A stretch of 25,230 bases of DNA from a virus. The stretch's first letter is position 1. Each line of letters begins with the position of its first letter. A program made the position numbers and the translations under genes. The notes beneath the pieces are model-generated. The model worked only from the letters and a program-made list of their open reading frames with translations, made no database searches and had not been told where the DNA came from. The stretch spans positions 1-25,230 of the IMG/VR virus record IMGVR_UViG_3300031951_001117; one strand, written 5' to 3'. This document shows positions 3,738-14,737 of this stretch, piece by piece.

Positions 3738-5147
3738 TCAAACAATCCCCTTTATGTTCCGCCGTAAGGCCCCAGACTTGTTGGCCATCGAATATCCGTG
3801 CATGATAGTTGATATATCGGTGGCGAGGCACAGGCACAGCGCATCCGCCTTATCCGGCGATGAAAGCCCGCGCTTCTTCATGCTCTCCTTACTTTCGACC
3901 TGCATCTTGCCCGACGACGTAAAGGTGTACCGCGGACCCGCCAACTCGGCGAACAACTGTTCGTCCTTCGGTATCTTAACGTCACGGTTCGCCAGCCAGC
4001 CCTTACACTTGAACCACAACTCGGCGCGTAGGTTGGCGTAAGTCCCTTTCATCGCAGGACTTTCCGCGACGTTGATCCCACGCGCTGGCAGACCCAGTTC
4101 GCGCAGACGGTCAAGGACACCAGCACCCAATCCGATACTATCGACCAGTATCTCGACTGGCTGCTCCGATGGCGTCAGCGCCTCAAACTCGGCCACGACT
4201 GCGCCTGTTAACTGCATCAGGTCCAGACCTTTCCAAGTCTGTATCTCTTCAACAACCGGGCCGCGCCGCTTAGCGAGTGCGGAAGCATCCGAACCCATAC
4301 GCGCTACGTCTAGGCCCCATACGCTTTTTGTGGTTGGGCTAATCTTAATCTCGCGGTTCATGGCGCTGTCGATCAACTCAACCGGGATAACCGTATCTTC
4401 TTCACGCGGCGGGAAGTTACCAAGAACGCGAACATGGTACGCCGGGCTGTCTTCACCATAGCGCAACTGCATCTCTCGCACGAACGCATCGGACACACGC
4501 GGGCTGTCGAGGCAGCTAACATGGAAGGTTTTCCATTCGCCCTTCAGACGATTGTGCGTATCGTAGAATAATCCGGTGTTTCGCGTAGGGTTGCCGAGAA
4601 GAAGCGTCGTCGCATTGTGGCCGGACATAGAACCGGACGCAGCTTCATATACACTTTCAGGTATACCGGACGCTTCGTCTGCGACGAGCAGCACGTTGTC
4701 GGCGTGGATACCCTGCAAGGCTTCGGGCGTTTCGGCTCGGCTCGTTCGGGCGGAGATAAACGCTTCACTGGCTGCGGCCTTCAACTCAATACGGTCGGCC
4801 TTGACTTCGATCAGAACCTTCAAGACTTCAGGCAGTTCGTTCACCCATCGCTTCAGTTCCGCGAACATCGCATCGAACAACTGTGCGGATGTCGGCGCTG
4901 TAACAACTACCTTCACCGGATACCGCGTCAGGAAGTAATGCAGCATGGCCCAGCTTGCGGCTGTCGATTTGCCGACGCCGTGGCCTGATCGCACGGAGAT
5001 ACGGCGCTCGCCTGAACTAATCGCTTTGAGAAACTCGACTTGCCAAGGGTCTGGCTTCGTTCGTAGAATATCGCGCACGAACCCTACGGGATCATCGCGG
5101 TACTTCTTCAAAAACTCCAGAAAGAAGTTCGGCTCAGATTTCGTCAT
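3738..5147 (-). CDS. terL: Terminase large subunit (TerL)
   Basis: 469 residues, the usual length. TerL is the ATP-driven packaging motor that docks on the portal and cuts concatemers. ATPase domain: Walker A RSGHGVGKST at about 53-62, Walker B VLLVADEAS with D157/E158. Nuclease domain (RNase H fold): GLDVARMGSD with D280 and D287, ILVDSIGLG with D336, and PDKADALCL with D432/D435. All key acidic residues are present, so it should be active. ATG at 5147 has GGGGAG about 7 nt upstream. The first 14 nt overlap the recombinase gene, so the two are co-transcribed. Unusually, the small-subunit gene is not adjacent: it lies 3.4 kb away on the opposite strand. Confidence 0.95.
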   Translation of the reverse strand: MTKSEPNFFLEFLKKYRDDPVGFVRDILRTKPDPWQVEFLKAISSGERRISVRSGHGVGKSTAASWAMLHYFLTRYPVKVVVTAPTSAQLFDAMFAELKRWVNELPEVLKVLIEVKADRIELKAAASEAFISARTSRAETPEALQGIHADNVLLVADEASGIPESVYEAASGSMSGHNATTLLLGNPTRNTGLFYDTHNRLKGEWKTFHVSCLDSPRVSDAFVREMQLRYGEDSPAYHVRVLGNFPPREEDTVIPVELIDSAMNREIKISPTTKSVWGLDVARMGSDASALAKRRGPVVEEIQTWKGLDLMQLTGAVVAEFEALTPSEQPVEILVDSIGLGAGVLDRLRELGLPARGINVAESPAMKGTYANLRAELWFKCKGWLANRDVKIPKDEQLFAELAGPRYTFTSSGKMQVESKESMKKRGLSSPDKADALCLCLATDISTIMHGYSMANKSGALRRNIKGIV

Positions 5148-8525: not shown

Positions 8526-9059
8526 ATGGCCGGACATATTAAACGACGCACGATTGCGTCGAACTTAGACAAGGTTGGCGAGACTGTTTTGCTGGAGAAG
8601 ATTGCATCCGGCCTGACAATGGCTGGCCTTGCCCGCGAACTGAACATCAGCAACCTGTCGCTCTATCATTGGATACGCAAAGACCCAGACCGAGAGGAAC
8701 GGTTCAGGCAGGCCCGGACAATCGCGGCTGACCAATGGGCGGACGAGTGCCTCGACATTGCCGACGCCTCGGACAGCACATCGGCCAACGCTGACAGGCT
8801 CAAGATCGAGACACGCAAATGGCTGGCTGGTGTTGCTGCTCCTGACAAGTTCCAAGCCAAGCCGACCACAGCGGTCCAAGTCAACGTGAACCAACTCCAC
8901 CTTGATGCACTGCGCCAGCTAAACTTGGCGTCCTCTAACCCACATGATCCTCATGAAGCCATAGACCAAGAAATAACCATAGACATCACACCCCCAAAGC
9001 AAGTCGGCTCGCATAACCTCGATGCGGACGACTTGCCGGGTGTGTTTGACGACGATTAA
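8526..9059 (+). CDS. terS: Terminase small subunit (Sf6 gp1-like)
   Basis: 177 residues. TerS recognises the packaging site on concatemeric DNA and hands it to TerL. The N-terminal HTH (about residues 25-55, IASGLTMAGLARELNISNLSLYHWIRKDP) is followed by FRQARTIAADQWADECLDIAD and, after a variable loop, RLKIETRKWLAGVAAPDKF. This order and spacing match the Sf6-type family (HTH, AR...AD...DIAD, then R...RKW...P.K). The C-terminal tail (about 115-177) is acidic and probably disordered, as expected for the TerL contact. ATG with AAAGGA 7 nt upstream. It is last in the rightward small-gene operon and divergent from TerL, an uncommon arrangement. The large palindromic region directly downstream could hold the packaging site. 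Confidence 0.82.
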   Translation: MAGHIKRRTIASNLDKVGETVLLEKIASGLTMAGLARELNISNLSLYHWIRKDPDREERFRQARTIAADQWADECLDIADASDSTSANADRLKIETRKWLAGVAAPDKFQAKPTTAVQVNVNQLHLDALRQLNLASSNPHDPHEAIDQEITIDITPPKQVGSHNLDADDLPGVFDDD

Positions 9060-9092
9060 CGGAAAACTGCCATCCGTGCATGGTTTGCCCTC

Positions 9093-9392
9093 TTCGGGCC
9101 GGGTTTAAAGAAATCCGTGCACGGTTTGGCCTTCTTAAAAATGGCTGTTTTCCGCCATCCGTGCATGGTTGGGCCAGAAGTGCATGGTTTTTCTAATAAC
9201 GTCCTATACATTTTGGGTATTTACTAATACTATATTATATACTATATATATAAATACCCCGTGTATAAGGGCTCTTGGTAGGAAAAGGTCGGCACTTCCG
9301 GCCCAACCGTGCACCGATGGCTGTTTTCTGCGGGTTTCCGCACACGCCAAACCGTGCACGGATTTTATAAACCCGGCCCAACCCGGCCCGAA
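9093..9392. repeat. Large imperfect palindrome with CCGTGCAYGG sites and AT-rich centre
   Basis: Non-coding stretch 9060-9402. Several arm pairs share one centre at about 9237.5: 9096-9107/9368-9379 (12 bp, perfect), 9111-9130/9346-9365 (20 bp, perfect), 9154-9175/9300-9321 (20 of 22), 9172-9183/9292-9303 (11 of 12) and 9215-9223/9251-9259 (9 bp, around a run of TA steps). The arms carry CCGTGCAYGG at 9074, 9115, 9159, 9307 (CCGTGCACCG) and 9352, plus a degenerate copy at 9178. CCGTGCACGG is itself palindromic. Arrays of sites around an AT-rich core are seen in replication origins and regulatory or packaging sites. The function here is unknown. Confidence 0.85.
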
Positions 9393-9402
9393 AGGATTTT
9401 GC

Positions 9403-9903
9403 GTGACCATATACCAGACTTTGAAAGAGACATTCGACTACGACCCCGACACCGGGGCGCTGACCTACCGCCAGCCAAGAGGATCACTCCCCGCCGGACG
9501 CCCAGCAGGCACGGCGGTAGCTAACGGCTACAACGTAAAGTTTAACGGTTCGTATATCATGGCCCATCGGATTATCTGGAACCTCGTAACAGGCGAATGG
9601 CCACAGCACCCTGTCCGCCATGTCAACGGCGACAAACTGGACAACCGCTGGGACAATTTAGCAGTCCACGCTCCGCTCCGTAACCGCGACCCAATCACGC
9701 GCAAGCCTGTGCCCCGTAACACTGACCGTGCTCCTGCGCATGGCGTTGGCCGTGTCTTTTTCGCCAAAGCAGGTGTGACGCTGTTTGAAGCTAACGCCAT
9801 TGTTAAGGGCGAGCGCGTATTCCTAGGCCGCTTTAAGACACCGGAAGAGGCACGAGCCGCTTTTAAGCACGCAACGGGCTACAACGCGCCGGGTTTACTA
9901 TAA
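9403..9903 (+). CDS. HNH endonuclease with AP2-like DNA-binding domain
   Basis: 166 residues from a GTG at 9403, with AAAGGA about 7 nt upstream. Earlier in-frame starts run through the palindromic region and are rejected. HNH_3 core: GSYIMAHRIIWNLVTGEWP, then VRHVNGDKLDNRWDNL, which supplies the His, Asn and metal-binding residues. The C-terminal part (GVGRVFFAKAGVTLFEANAI, then LGRFKTPEEARAAFKHA) resembles the AP2-like domain that binds DNA in phage HNH proteins. Such proteins are usually free-standing homing endonucleases that spread between phages and nick or cut near their own insertion site. It ends at the bidirectional terminator, so it could be an inserted cassette between TerS and the leftward early operon. 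Confidence 0.88.
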   Translation: MTIYQTLKETFDYDPDTGALTYRQPRGSLPAGRPAGTAVANGYNVKFNGSYIMAHRIIWNLVTGEWPQHPVRHVNGDKLDNRWDNLAVHAPLRNRDPITRKPVPRNTDRAPAHGVGRVFFAKAGVTLFEANAIVKGERVFLGRFKTPEEARAAFKHATGYNAPGLL

Positions 9904-9961: not shown

Positions 9962-10282
9962 TCAATCTTGGCTGCACATCTTTTCCTGCGCGGCTATGAG
10001 CCTATCGAGAAACCACCGGGCCTTTTTCAAGTCCTCTAACGGCTTCCCTTTCTTTTCATAGCGCCACAAATATTTTGTGACCGAACCTTTGAGGTAGCCA
10101 GCATATGCCTCCGGAGCCATCGACGCTTCGATCCCTTCGATAGCCTCGATGCCACCGGACTTATAGTGCGGAGGGCTATTGACCACATCGACCGCCTCGT
10201 CATCAACCCGAACGCGCTCGTTACACGTCTGATTAAGCGCATCCCTCACATCCTTATACCGCATAAAATCGTTCCCATACAT
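9962..10282 (-). CDS. DUF3310 family protein
   Basis: 106 residues. The core VVNSPPHYKSGGIEAIEGIE followed by YLKGSVTKYLWRYEKKGKPLEDLKKARWFLDRLI is the DUF3310 signature, a small phage family sometimes labelled nucleotide-kinase-like or SaV-like; its biochemistry is not settled to my knowledge. ATG at 10282 overlaps the primase-helicase stop (TAATG), so it is coupled. It is the last gene of the leftward early operon, before the terminator at 9902-9937. The replisome neighbourhood supports a role in nucleotide supply or replication. Confidence 0.88.
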   Translation of the reverse strand: MYGNDFMRYKDVRDALNQTCNERVRVDDEAVDVVNSPPHYKSGGIEAIEGIEASMAPEAYAGYLKGSVTKYLWRYEKKGKPLEDLKKARWFLDRLIAAQEKMCSQD

Positions 10283-12759
10283 TACACGTCCTCCCCATCA
10301 TCTGCTTTGAAGTTAATCTCAAGGCCGAAGAAATCCTCCGACTGCTCATCTATCATGGCGTTGATGACCATATAGTCTTCATCGCCAATGAGAAGTTCAA
10401 GGCCACGGAACACACGCTTCGTTCGTGTCGCCCGGTCCCTTGTGGGGTCATAGCCCCGTATCTTCATCTCGTTGTTGAACTTACGCTGCGACCAATCCTT
10501 GCCCTTTGCCTCGTTGCTATCCTTGCACCAGTCGCGGAAGTCGTTGAACGCCTCGATGGTAGTCATTTCATTGTCATCGCCAGCCACGCAACGCTCCGTA
10601 ATCCAGCGGGCCAATGCATCCTCTCCTGCGAGATACTCATCGGTAGCTTGGATAACGACCTTTGGCGGGTTCAACCCTTCAGACAGCCAAGCCTTAGCGC
10701 CTTCGATAATCCATGCTAGGATCGCGGGGTATTCCTCCTTCAGCTTATCGGGCAGGTCCATGTCCTTGACGATAGGCTTAGTCTCGAACGGGATCAGGTG
10801 CATACGCCGACGCATAGCGTCATCTACGTTAGTAATCTCTGGCTTCGTGTTGCCCGCAATCACAAGCGTGAACTGCGGCGTGAACTCAAAGTTATCCTGC
10901 CGCATGAAGCGGGCACTGATCTTGTCCCCGCCAGTAAGCGACTTCACCTTGGCTTCGTCCCACTTGCGCGACGGGTCAATCTCCTGCGCGTGCACGAGCC
11001 TCGCACCCATCAACGACGCCAACTCTGTGGGGTGTCGCTGATTGTTCGACGCCAAGAATACGTCCGCACTGGCCACGGTGGCATAATCGCCAAGGATATT
11101 GCCTATCGCTCCAAGGAAGGTTCCTTTGCCATTGCCGCCGGACCCGTGGGCGAAAGCAAGCACATGCTCCTTCGTAGATCCCGTCGCCGAATACCCAGCC
11201 AACCTTTGAAGGTAAGTGATTAACTCACTGTCACCGTTGCACGCCTCATTGAGGAACGCTTGCCATTGCGGGGCTGGCTTGCTGAAGTCCGCCTCGACCG
11301 ATGTGCATTTTGTGCACATGCGAGAACGGTCATGAGGAAGCAACTCCCCTGTCTTCAGGTCCACCATACCCGACCGGGTGTTGAGGATATAGATGTCCGC
11401 GTCTAGCTGCTCCGTCGTGGCCTGCATCGACGGCTCAACCGCAGCCAGCTTCGCCACGTTTGCAATCACATTGTATGACGCCACACGTTGAGCAATTCTC
11501 TCACCCTTTTGCGGGCTTTCAATGTTCTGCAACGCCTCGGCCGACGCGTTCGCGCAGACCTTGCGCACAATGGACAGGTGCTTGTTCGCCACGTCCTTGG
11601 CCCACTTGTTGCCATCCCATGCGACCCAGCCCATGCCGCCCACAACGTATCGGATGTCCGAAACGTGTAGCCGAGCAACGCGCTGCGCGAGAGCTATGTC
11701 GCTATACTCAATCGGCGTTTCACCCGCAGACGCCACCATGCCGAAGTCGTCGTCGTCAAAGTCCGTCACATCGAACTCATCGACCTCGCGTTTGTAGCCG
11801 AAGGCTACAGCCTTACCGGCCAGCCAATCCCAACCCAACTCATAGGGCGGGTGCATACGGCCGAAGTCCGCTTCGATAGTATCGAGCGAGTTAACCCCGT
11901 CTTCCCAACGCTCGGCCCAAGATGCGAATATCTCGAACGCGTCCGGCTCATGGTCTGGGCCACACGCCGCCTTGATGGCATAGCCCATACGGATATAGTC
12001 ATCGCGGTCAGGGAAATGCTCAGTCTTGTTTGGGATGGCAGCCACGGCAGCGGCCACATGTGTAATGCTTGGCGCGGTGAGCGACACCTGATCGACCGAC
12101 TGCCGCTCGACTGCCTTCTGCGCCGTCTTATCCGCGTGGATAATCTCGCAGCCCATCATCTCCAACGTCTCCGTCAGGTCCGCAAAGAACTGCTCAATCT
12201 TTTCCCGCGTGACCTTCTTCAACCCGGCAGGGCCACGTTGCGTCAGGTCCACATCAAGACTGTATGGCTCCTTGGTGATAGGGTGAATACCTGCGATGAC
12301 GTACTGCTGCCCGTCACCTAGAAATTCTACAAGCTGCTCGACGCCCCTGTCATCACGGAACCGCACCTGCATCCGGCCGATCTTTTCGTCGGTGCGATAC
12401 ATGAACAATCGCTTGGGGAAACGACCGATACGCATCGGGGCTTTGCCCAATGCCTTCACCGCCATATCACCAATGACCCTAGCCAGCCCCTCGTTAACAA
12501 CATCAATGTCAACCGCAGGATATTTGCTTGCCTTCAAGCCGATATTAGCGTGGCTGCGGTCCCACCGTTCAACATCATTCGGCGTCGGCACATAGTCCTG
12601 CCAGCCGTAGCCGCCCCATGTGCCCTGCGCATTCTGCCGACCGGGTGCTTTGCCTGCCTGATCCGCTTGGATTTTGGACATGGCAGATAGTTCCGCGTTT
12701 GGCGGAATTACCGACACAAGGTCGGTGAACCCGACCTCATACAGTGTCTTAAATTTCAT
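10282..12759 (-). CDS. Primase-helicase (prim-pol plus D5-like SF3 helicase)
   Basis: 825 residues. It should unwind the fork and lay down primers. Domains: an AEP/prim-pol primase-polymerase module (about 30-200) with the DID motif at 84-86 and GIHP near 157-160; a PriCT-2-like linker (about 235-325, HFPDRDDYIRMGYAIKAACG); a D5-N-like region (about 375-510); and an SF3/D5 AAA+ helicase (about 520-740) with Walker A GSGGNGKGT at 539-547, a HAQEID Walker-B-like segment and the VIAGNTKPEI sensor-1 region. The architecture matches P4-type phage/plasmid primases. ATG at 12759 overlaps the upstream stop as TAATG. It likely works with the family A polymerase at 14738. Confidence 0.92.
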   Translation of the reverse strand: MKFKTLYEVGFTDLVSVIPPNAELSAMSKIQADQAGKAPGRQNAQGTWGGYGWQDYVPTPNDVERWDRSHANIGLKASKYPAVDIDVVNEGLARVIGDMAVKALGKAPMRIGRFPKRLFMYRTDEKIGRMQVRFRDDRGVEQLVEFLGDGQQYVIAGIHPITKEPYSLDVDLTQRGPAGLKKVTREKIEQFFADLTETLEMMGCEIIHADKTAQKAVERQSVDQVSLTAPSITHVAAAVAAIPNKTEHFPDRDDYIRMGYAIKAACGPDHEPDAFEIFASWAERWEDGVNSLDTIEADFGRMHPPYELGWDWLAGKAVAFGYKREVDEFDVTDFDDDDFGMVASAGETPIEYSDIALAQRVARLHVSDIRYVVGGMGWVAWDGNKWAKDVANKHLSIVRKVCANASAEALQNIESPQKGERIAQRVASYNVIANVAKLAAVEPSMQATTEQLDADIYILNTRSGMVDLKTGELLPHDRSRMCTKCTSVEADFSKPAPQWQAFLNEACNGDSELITYLQRLAGYSATGSTKEHVLAFAHGSGGNGKGTFLGAIGNILGDYATVASADVFLASNNQRHPTELASLMGARLVHAQEIDPSRKWDEAKVKSLTGGDKISARFMRQDNFEFTPQFTLVIAGNTKPEITNVDDAMRRRMHLIPFETKPIVKDMDLPDKLKEEYPAILAWIIEGAKAWLSEGLNPPKVVIQATDEYLAGEDALARWITERCVAGDDNEMTTIEAFNDFRDWCKDSNEAKGKDWSQRKFNNEMKIRGYDPTRDRATRTKRVFRGLELLIGDEDYMVINAMIDEQSEDFFGLEINFKADDGEDV

Positions 12760-12982: not shown

Positions 12983-13252
12983 CTAATCCCCTTCGGCGTC
13001 AGCGCCTTCAACCGCAATGTTGAGCGGAACGATGTCGGCGCGATCCAAGTAAGAACGGCCAGTGTAAATGATATTGTTGTCTGCATGGATTTGCGCCGTG
13101 GTTCTGTCAGCCAGAAGCGACTGTGCATAGAGCAGAAGGTCGTAGGCATCAATCTTGCCTTCGATATAAACTCTGTTAGCGATCCGTTTGGCGTAGCCAT
13201 GTGTGTTGTTGGCGATCCACTCGGCCAGTTGTGCTGCTAATACCTGTTTCAT
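12983..13252 (-). CDS. Unrecognised protein (89 aa)
   Basis: ATG at 13252 overlaps the Dam stop as ATGA. Begins MKQVLAAQLAEWIANNTHGY; the first two thirds (AKRIANRVYIEGKIDAYDLLLYAQSLL) look helical, with an acidic tail. No family recognised. An alternative frame over the same bases gives a Ser/Thr/Arg-rich product and is discounted. Part of the coupled early operon. Confidence 0.75.
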   Translation of the reverse strand: MKQVLAAQLAEWIANNTHGYAKRIANRVYIEGKIDAYDLLLYAQSLLADRTTAQIHADNNIIYTGRSYLDRADIVPLNIAVEGADAEGD

Positions 13253-13671: not shown

Positions 13672-13823
13672 TTCAAATGATCCCCTGCTTCAATCCGATC
13701 CGCCAGCCAACGTGTGCTGCGCTCAAACATATTCATCTTGCCAGTGCGAAGCCACGCAATGATTGCGTCTTTCTCGTTCACGACAGGCGGTTTCTCTTCA
13801 TTAGTTTTTGTTGGACGTGTCAT
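13668..13823 (-). CDS. Unrecognised small protein (51 aa)
   Basis: Begins MTRPTKTNEEKPPVVNEKDA and continues IIAWLRTGKMNMFERSTRWLADRIEAGDHLK. The start overlaps the regulator stop as TAATG, and its stop overlaps the Dam start as ATGA, strong support for translation. A polar N-terminus precedes an amphipathic helical region. No family recognised; it may assist the methyltransferase given the coupling. Confidence 0.65.
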   Translation of the reverse strand: MTRPTKTNEEKPPVVNEKDAIIAWLRTGKMNMFERSTRWLADRIEAGDHLK

Positions 13824-14593
13824 TAAGTTAACTCCTTCATTATGAAACCTTTTGTCTCAGCGTAGGCGATGAGGTCGTCGAGCCACATCACGCCTTTCCC
13901 TGCGACGTAATACTGATTGATGCCACGATGCGGCACATTCTTAACGTCGCCCCATGTGTGCGGCGAATGCTCATACATTTTTATATCCGCACGATGGACT
14001 GACGCATGGTAGCGGCGAAGAAAACGCGCAGCCTCGGCCGCAACTAATTTTGCCCGGCCGCTAAACTCACGCCGTGCAACTTCGCCGTCTTCCTCAATCT
14101 TGAGCGGAGTAGGCTTAGCGTTTTGTGCGAGCCAGTCCACCCTCGACATCGATGACAGCCCTGTTTCTTTAAGCCAACCCATAACGGTTAAGCGGTCGGT
14201 GTTATATAACCGCATCAGTTCGGCGCGGGTCATGGTCGGGGCCATCTTGCAGAAGTTATGCGGGATGGCCTTCACCGTTCCGCGTGGATCGACAACGATC
14301 TCCGTAAGTTCGAGTTCCTCCATCCAACGGGAAACCACCGACCTAGCACGACCGTAGTGCTTAACGAGTTGCGTCTGGTTCATGGTCTTCGCCAGTTCTA
14401 TTAAGTCATCCGGCGGTGGCATCCTGCGTATGACGACGCCACGCTTTAGCCCTAGCTTTCTACGCCGACCATCAATCGCGTCGATTGAACGGCCGAGCGC
14501 CTGCGCAATCTGCGCGTGCGTCAGCTTATTCTCGTAAAGTTCTATGAGTATGGCGTCCTCTTCCGACCGCCACGGGGTAAAACTATTGTCCAT
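13823..14593 (-). CDS. DNA-binding regulator with three HTH-like modules
   Basis: 256 residues from an ATG at 14593, with AAGGGAG directly upstream; a GTG at 14632 would add 13 residues without a comparable site. The N-terminal module WRSEEDAILIELYENKLTHAQ...GRSIDAIDGRRRKLGLKR is a Myb/SANT-like HTH that resembles the start of the alphaproteobacterial regulator GcrA. Two further HTH-like units follow: DLIELAKTMNQTQLVKHYGR...VVSRWMEEL and MAPTMTRAELMRLYNTDRLT...GWLKETGL. The C-terminus (about 190-256) is unrecognised and ends GVMWLDDLIAYAETKGFI. As first gene of the leftward early operon, divergent from the polymerase operon, it probably controls one or both; the inverted repeat at 14627-14691 is a candidate site. 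Confidence 0.75.
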   Translation of the reverse strand: MDNSFTPWRSEEDAILIELYENKLTHAQIAQALGRSIDAIDGRRRKLGLKRGVVIRRMPPPDDLIELAKTMNQTQLVKHYGRARSVVSRWMEELELTEIVVDPRGTVKAIPHNFCKMAPTMTRAELMRLYNTDRLTVMGWLKETGLSSMSRVDWLAQNAKPTPLKIEEDGEVARREFSGRAKLVAAEAARFLRRYHASVHRADIKMYEHSPHTWGDVKNVPHRGINQYYVAGKGVMWLDDLIAYAETKGFIMKELT

Positions 14594-14737
14594 GATCTCC
14601 CTTACTTCTTTGCTATCTCTCTTGGGTGGCACAGTTTGAATATCGAACGCAAGAACTTTTTTTAGTTGACGGCGCTATGCGTTTTGTGCCAGCTATAGGG
14701 AAAGCAAACGTGATACCGACAAAAAAGAGGGAAGAGC
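14594..14737. promoter_or_regulatory. Divergent promoter region with a spaced inverted repeat
   Basis: 144 bp between the leftward early operon and the rightward polymerase operon. TGGCACA (14627-14633) and TGTGCCA (14685-14691) form a 7-bp inverted pair 51 bp apart. TTGACG (14666-14671) and TATAGG (14694-14699) lie 22 bp apart, too far for a standard promoter, so I cannot place a -35/-10 pair with confidence. A strong AGAGGGAAGAG ribosome site precedes the polymerase ATG. Confidence 0.45.

Follow-up and report, generated by a model that had tools for sequence, protein, structure and literature searches.

A palindromic site array in an uncultured phage is probably a P4-type replication origin that switches specificity together with its primase-helicase

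What is the role of a large palindrome lodged between the gene for the small terminase subunit (TerS) and an HNH endonuclease gene in an uncultured phage? The DNA analysed here (the window: 25,230 nucleotides, positions 1 to 25,230 of IMG/VR virus record IMGVR_UViG_3300031951_001117) carries such an element in the 343-bp stretch that separates the TerS stop (8526-9059) from the HNH start (9403). A first-pass annotation had offered five candidate roles: replication origin, packaging recognition site, operator array, recombination site, or remnant of an inverted duplication. Comparison with relatives supports the first of these, and the other four lose ground. The element is very probably a phage DNA replication origin of the P4/SaPI type, read by a winged helix at the C-terminus of the primase-helicase that the phage itself encodes.

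The large dyad at 9093-9392 is real. The dyad score of the whole stretch (z 10.4, 164/330 positions) is reached by none of 1000 first-order Markov sequences (maximum 6.6), and the two top scores among 498 scanning windows of the record fall here (z 11.0 and 10.3, the third being 7.6), so that the annotation's description of one large imperfect palindrome is borne out. Its 20-bp arms at 9111-9130/9346-9365 are perfect, as it had reported, and are nested in a 34-nt pair (9097-9130/9346-9379, 82% complementary); further in lies a 30-nt pair (9154-9183/9292-9321, 90% complementary) and outermost a perfect 13-nt pair (9093-9105/9380-9392). The array comprises 6+6 sites, each short and asymmetric, which run forward in the left arm and in reverse in the right (CCGTGCAYGGTTT in the window, CGGGACGGGTTT in relatives). 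Cores start at 9076, 9096, 9117, 9161, 9171 and 9180 on the plus strand and at 9295, 9304, 9314, 9359, 9379 and 9389 on the minus strand, the site at 9295 being degenerate and recognised by eye. Two early claims need amending at this point. The common centre at about 9237.5 holds for five of six mirror pairs (9237.5-9238), but the outermost pair (9076/9389) misses it by about 5 bp; the outer arms of 13 bp, which match site L2 to site R6, are centred on 9242.5. The exact CCGTGCAYGG does occur on both arms and nowhere else in the record, but the repeat unit is asymmetric, not palindromic. The AT-richest 60-bp stretches of the record lie within 9194-9256 (82%, versus 46% record-wide). The features are as follows, with the basis for each in brackets.

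9060..9402, no strand: whole candidate origin element (TerS stop to HNH start codon; arms and dyad)
9076..9083, plus: site L1 GTGCATGG (sequence match)
9096..9103, plus: site L2 GGGCCGGG (arm comparison)
9117..9124, plus: site L3 GTGCACGG (sequence match)
9161..9168, plus: site L4 GTGCATGG (sequence match)
9171..9178, plus: site L5 GGGCCAGA (arm comparison)
9180..9187, plus: site L6 GTGCATGG (arm comparison)
9191..9291, no strand: AT-rich centre, 69% AT, candidate melting region (base composition)
9288..9295, minus: site R1 GTGCCGAC, degenerate (by eye)
9297..9304, minus: site R2 GGGCCGGA (arm comparison)
9307..9314, minus: site R3 GTGCACGG (arm comparison)
9352..9359, minus: site R4 GTGCACGG (sequence match)
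9372..9379, minus: site R5 GGGCCGGG (arm comparison)
9382..9389, minus: site R6 GGGCCGGG (arm comparison)
8526..9059, plus: TerS, left neighbour, without class covariation (homology, MI)
9403..9903, plus: HNH endonuclease, GTG start; right neighbour, not always present and linked to layout B (homology)
9962..10282, minus: DUF3310 gene, between the element and the primase gene (domain match)
10282..12759, minus: P4-family (D5_N) primase-helicase, proposed site-binding initiator (TIGR01613, D5_N, class covariation)
10393..10617, minus: predicted C-terminal winged helix of the primase-helicase, residues 715-789 (AlphaFold2; 1ka8 likeness)

The element thus lies downstream of the primase-helicase gene, with the DUF3310 gene and, in layout B, the HNH gene intervening. 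At the left end of the record, a minus-strand protein (2-562) carries a long AAAQAQ-type repeat.

The array is strongly conserved. Relatives were gathered by TerS and primase searches (the best 80 loci from each). They belong to a large family of uncultured phages whose TerS is 85-100% and whose primase is 72-99% identical; a genome scan gave two matches only, both in MAGs (L215 and L216). Counts below are of distinct relatives; a wider tally of 132/133 loci (layouts 86 and 45) includes window pieces and repeat contigs. The annotation had named related phages as a check on its proposal, and symmetry and sites are kept: of 77 distinct relatives covered from the TerS end through to DUF3310, 76 carry an array of 10 or more sites and the remaining one (L154) carries 9. 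GC skew, another of the checks proposed, does not change sign at 9237, where gene direction confounds skew. Elements come in two layouts (left unassigned for 3 of 77): layout A, with inner sites 9 bp apart, and layout B, which is that of the window. The HNH gene is present with 21 of 22 layout-B elements and absent from 49 of 52 layout-A elements (present with 3/52), and the endonuclease may home into or with the origin. Exactly 6+6 sites are recognised in 42/53 layout-A and 9/22 layout-B elements (75 in all); the others have 5 to 7 sites in an arm.

Further motifs occur in the two layouts. The direct repeat ATGGCTGTTTT, from which rearrangement of the arms had been deduced, belongs to a separate plus-strand-only motif, GCNGTTTTCNGC (9141-9155 and 9317-9331), and therefore gives no sign of rearranged arms. 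One or two copies of GCNGTTTTCNGC are found in 22/22 layout-B elements and in 0/53 of layout A; it could be a strand-specific signal, for example a priming site. The layout-A centre (e.g. in L007) holds another conserved dyad, GTAACA...TGTTAC, which accompanies both of the site classes described next and is thus perhaps read by a factor other than the primase-helicase.

Sites of the T class read GTGCA[CT], GTGCC or GGGCC, and those of the G class GGGAC[AG]. The two classes replace each other as whole arrays, each being found in both layouts, and none of the 77 elements has two or more matches of both kinds. A sister family, with a primase about 73% identical, adds a C class (CGGACG; L200 and L203) and an A class (AGGACG; L207). 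That the whole array changes together points to one protein reading it. Among 37 T and 16 G layout-A elements, the arm spacers are class-specific (T-T 0.94/0.99, G-G 0.84/1.00, T-G 0.47/0.57), the TerS-side flank is not (0.99/0.90/0.92), and the centre is intermediate (0.85/0.80/0.67). The mode of switching is thereby partly resolved: class-specific spacers beside a non-specific flank favour exchange of cassettes over stepwise mutation. Exact sites form one cluster only in the window record, in the record of each of 6 T-class relatives and in those G-class records, 2 of 4, that matched a stricter pattern, bearing in mind that records may be fragments.

Which protein follows the site class? Eleven window proteins were listed and ten were scored by column MI with site class, Dam (4 rows) being left out. 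Well-filled columns that track the class occur in the primase-helicase alone, at residues 774, 762, 763, 772 and 733, and more weakly at 735. These six columns (733-774) reach MI 0.42-0.83 over 65 sequences, while no primase column exceeds 0.26 in any of 200 label shuffles. Among distinct primase sequences, residue 774 is R in 42/42 of the T class and K in 23/23 of the G class; residue 762 is N in 42/42 T, and T, I, V or S in 22/23 G. Residue 772 also tracks a difference within the G class: H accompanies GGGACG (18/18) and other residues GGGACA (4/5; Fisher p 0.0006).

The association of residues with T/G class recurs independently on a tree. We built it from the DNA of primase codons 1-720, leaving out the winged-helix domain and dropping loci with fewer than 9 sites in 340 bp, incomplete primases and exact duplicates (L201 and L203 are among those dropped). 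On this tree the T/G class needs 18 changes, of which 15 are forced by well-supported branches. Among 15 independent pairs, residue 774 changes along with the class in 14 and against it in 0 (p 0.00012), and the same holds for residue 762; residue 772 goes with the class in 11/15, and residues 733 and 735 in 10/15. Linkage may contribute to the association of class and primase: on the tree of DUF3310, whose gene lies between element and primase gene, the class shows mild clustering (4 and 12 of 500 shuffles give a value as low). The class still needs 15 changes on that tree, and linkage alone thus does not explain the primase match; DUF3310 itself has no well-filled column above MI 0.25. The covariation of sites and winged-helix residues is a direct observation, as are the anatomy of the array and its conservation.

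Two loci are exceptions, and both may be recombinants or assembly chimeras: (i) L211 has a G-class array (L211:7697-8475) and a primase that matches the one of T-class L212 at every residue compared; (ii) L201 combines a collapsed T-class element of two sites with an L200-like (C-type) primase. L211 also has an extra small ORF between array and DUF3310. The C-class loci L200 and L203 keep R774 though A replaces the C of T sites, which indicates that the code is context-dependent and not one residue to one base. Between the near-isogenic primases of L209 (T array) and L204 (G array) there are 12 residue differences, of which 8 fall at 762-782. With the fifteen independent T/G pairs, these two make both the recognition code and the double-hexamer loading model set out below directly testable.

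The scores of the other proteins bear on the rival explanations. Site arrays also act as operators, and the element could be an operator or silencer array (for example of the HTH protein encoded at 13823-14632, which resembles a D5-like regulator, PHROG 323) or could serve iteron-type copy control without itself being the origin. We consider this very improbable: no column of the HTH protein exceeds MI 0.27 (34 sequences), and where HNH is missing (layout A), two gene ends converge on the element and a promoter is unneeded, which makes an operator unlikely. Copy control exerted through the primase-helicase remains conceivable. A role in packaging, as a pac/cos site to which the adjacent TerS would bind, is a shade less probable again. 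Pac sites are often located next to the TerS gene, and the element begins directly after that gene and is conserved with it, but none of the TerS columns filled in at least 40 sequences exceeds MI 0.20 (64 distinct sequences: 44 T, 20 G), the class being followed by the primase-helicase instead, and distant P4-family loci carry comparable site pairs behind the primase. Higher TerS values occur in a gappy loop near residue 138 (MI 0.56-0.72, 10-13 sequences) and at residue 142 (0.35, 18 sequences). Columns above MI 0.5 in TerS and in the ORF at 12983-13252 were set aside, having only 10-13 rows, as was one HNH column above 0.5 (at most 22 rows, only 3 of them G). Least likely of all is a target or by-product of recombination (a serine recombinase site, an HNH homing target or an inverted-duplication remnant), for which the tie between HNH and layout B and the cassette-like arm spacers speak, but the serine recombinase does not covary with the class (MI at most 0.20, 34 sequences), HNH accounts for the layout and not for the array, and a passive remnant would lose the conserved spacing and shared site class and does not explain why dozens of relatives retain the sites and switch them jointly.

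The domains of the primase-helicase fit the preferred reading, that of a replication origin of the P4 type. The protein matches TIGR01613 with 304.9 bits (cutoff 108.7), so that a P4-family SF3 helicase domain is present, and D5_N with 92.8 bits; the Pfam Pox_D5 match is not significant (E 0.058). An AlphaFold2 model of residues 672-812, made with 59 diverse rows, is a winged helix (mean pLDDT 83.5): helix 715-723, strand 724-733, helix 734-747, recognition helix 758-767, strand 772-774, wing 775-781 and strand 782-789. In this model, class residues 762 and 763 fall in the recognition helix, 772 and 774 in the wing strand, and 733 and 735 at the end of the first strand and the start of the next helix. 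A longer model (349-825, from a 23-row alignment of relatives) has a pLDDT of 37 and is the basis for no claim. A Foldseek search of the PDB gave nothing at E 0.001 or better, the best match being ASFV PrimPol (E 0.017), and the P4 domain is absent from the best 50 Foldseek matches and from the matches listed by PDB sequence searches. On a structural second look, the P4 origin-binding domain (1ka8) aligns with Z 7.5 (rmsd 2.5, 72 aligned), below the tool's caution level of 8, and ASFV PrimPol C962R (Z 9.2) and RFX (8.3) both score above it. The C-terminus is accordingly modelled as a winged-helix fold of the origin-binding kind.

How would such an origin work? The winged helix would bind the approximately 12 short sites, all of which point at the AT-rich centre. 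With six sites to an arm, each arm would attract six subunits and so carry one helicase hexamer. The two hexamers, facing each other, would melt the centre to initiate two forks, and the primase-helicase itself would also prime. Across specificity classes, arm cassettes and winged-helix residues have been swapped or altered together. We infer binding, hexamer loading, melting, priming and origin activity from the sequence comparisons. Several short repeats and an AT-rich stretch, as in iteron origins, are both present in the element. Origins of this kind are known; the new part is the repeated, concerted switching of site class and winged-helix residues. Among the titles and abstract openings listed by literature searches, which covered few subscription papers, none concerned the element, the co-switching or the 9-bp rule discussed below; all of these may nevertheless be published. 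How self-loading viral helicases choose an origin, and how the specificities of an array and its reader change jointly, can rarely be seen, and the question raised is an ecological one: why do phages keep switching specificity?

Known systems offer close parallels. The closest solved sequence relative of the primase-helicase in the PDB sequence search is 7ola, a 'DNA primase', which we take to be SaPI5 Rep. SaPI Rep and SCCmec Cch2 are similarly described as combining a Primase_Cterm/D5_N helicase with a C-terminal domain that reads short repeats just downstream of the gene (for the domain content of SaPI5 Rep, see PMC10061031). Cch2 has three iterons (AAGTG), whereas the window element has 6+6 inverted sites around an AT centre; in the window, moreover, the DUF3310 gene (and optionally HNH) intervenes, SaPI being compared by description only. 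In P4, the alpha protein is a P4-family helicase with a winged-helix origin-binding domain (1ka8), and crr lies just downstream of alpha, where the annotation places type 1 repeats 9 bp apart (4314+ and 4323+) and, after them, inverted ones at 4366 and 4384. P4 differs in that its sites are irregularly oriented and TGTTCACC-like and its ori is a second region some 4.5 kb distant, while one cluster is seen in the window record. The replication protein of pRN1 is annotated as a P4-family primase and has a C-terminal winged helix; the essential downstream element is described in PMC4234260 as having a 21-nt stem and a 58-nt loop. The essential stem holds TGTCCA twice, 9 bp apart, and inverted on the other side, and scores only 26 of 32 in the looser pair test that follows. 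It differs from the window element in having one pair per arm, and its description is that of a stem-loop and not of protein sites.

Is the 9-bp spacing more general? In 82 distant P4-family loci with at least 200 nt after the primase stop, we searched for two 8-mers, with a spacing of 8-12 allowed, and their inverted pair 61-74 nt on. Such pairs start 8-69 nt past the stop in 26 of the 82 loci, all 26 using a spacing of 9; they were not found in the other 56. As controls, 0/410 mononucleotide shuffles passed, and 6/320 windows drawn at random from these loci did. In a looser test, on 600 nt, the layout-A relatives L007 and L008 reach 26 of 28; the window's own layout-B element, P4 crr and P4 ori score 0, because their spacings or inner sites deviate. 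Among 11 named phages in the looser test, three are perfect (Malthus with 10-bp spacing, AcaML1 and 4316), two are weak (L311 with 8-bp spacing, and L312) and six are without inverted pairs in this test. One of these six, L305, has TGTGACGGATG repeats in both orientations visible by eye. These mixed outcomes suggest a 9-bp grammar that is common, not universal.

It is conceivable, though we lean slightly against it, that P4-family origins of phages, satellites and an archaeal plasmid share one grammar of head-to-head, 9-bp-spaced pairs around a meltable core, with here one site for each subunit of a double hexamer, and with arm cassettes and residues R/K774, N/T762, 763, H/P772 and 733 exchanged together. 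The exchange might then recur because co-infecting phages or satellites of the same specificity would fire or poach each other's origins, an explanation that we hold just as tentatively. If the shared grammar were true, the 'stem-loop' of the pRN1 origin would be paired protein sites, not a DNA hairpin. The pattern also provides a lead for locating origins in uncultured phages with P4-family primases. Among cultured phages, Mycobacterium phage Malthus (L304:2902-3110) has several GGGGACAT copies, a centre and then three inverted copies behind its primase gene, apparently an origin array.
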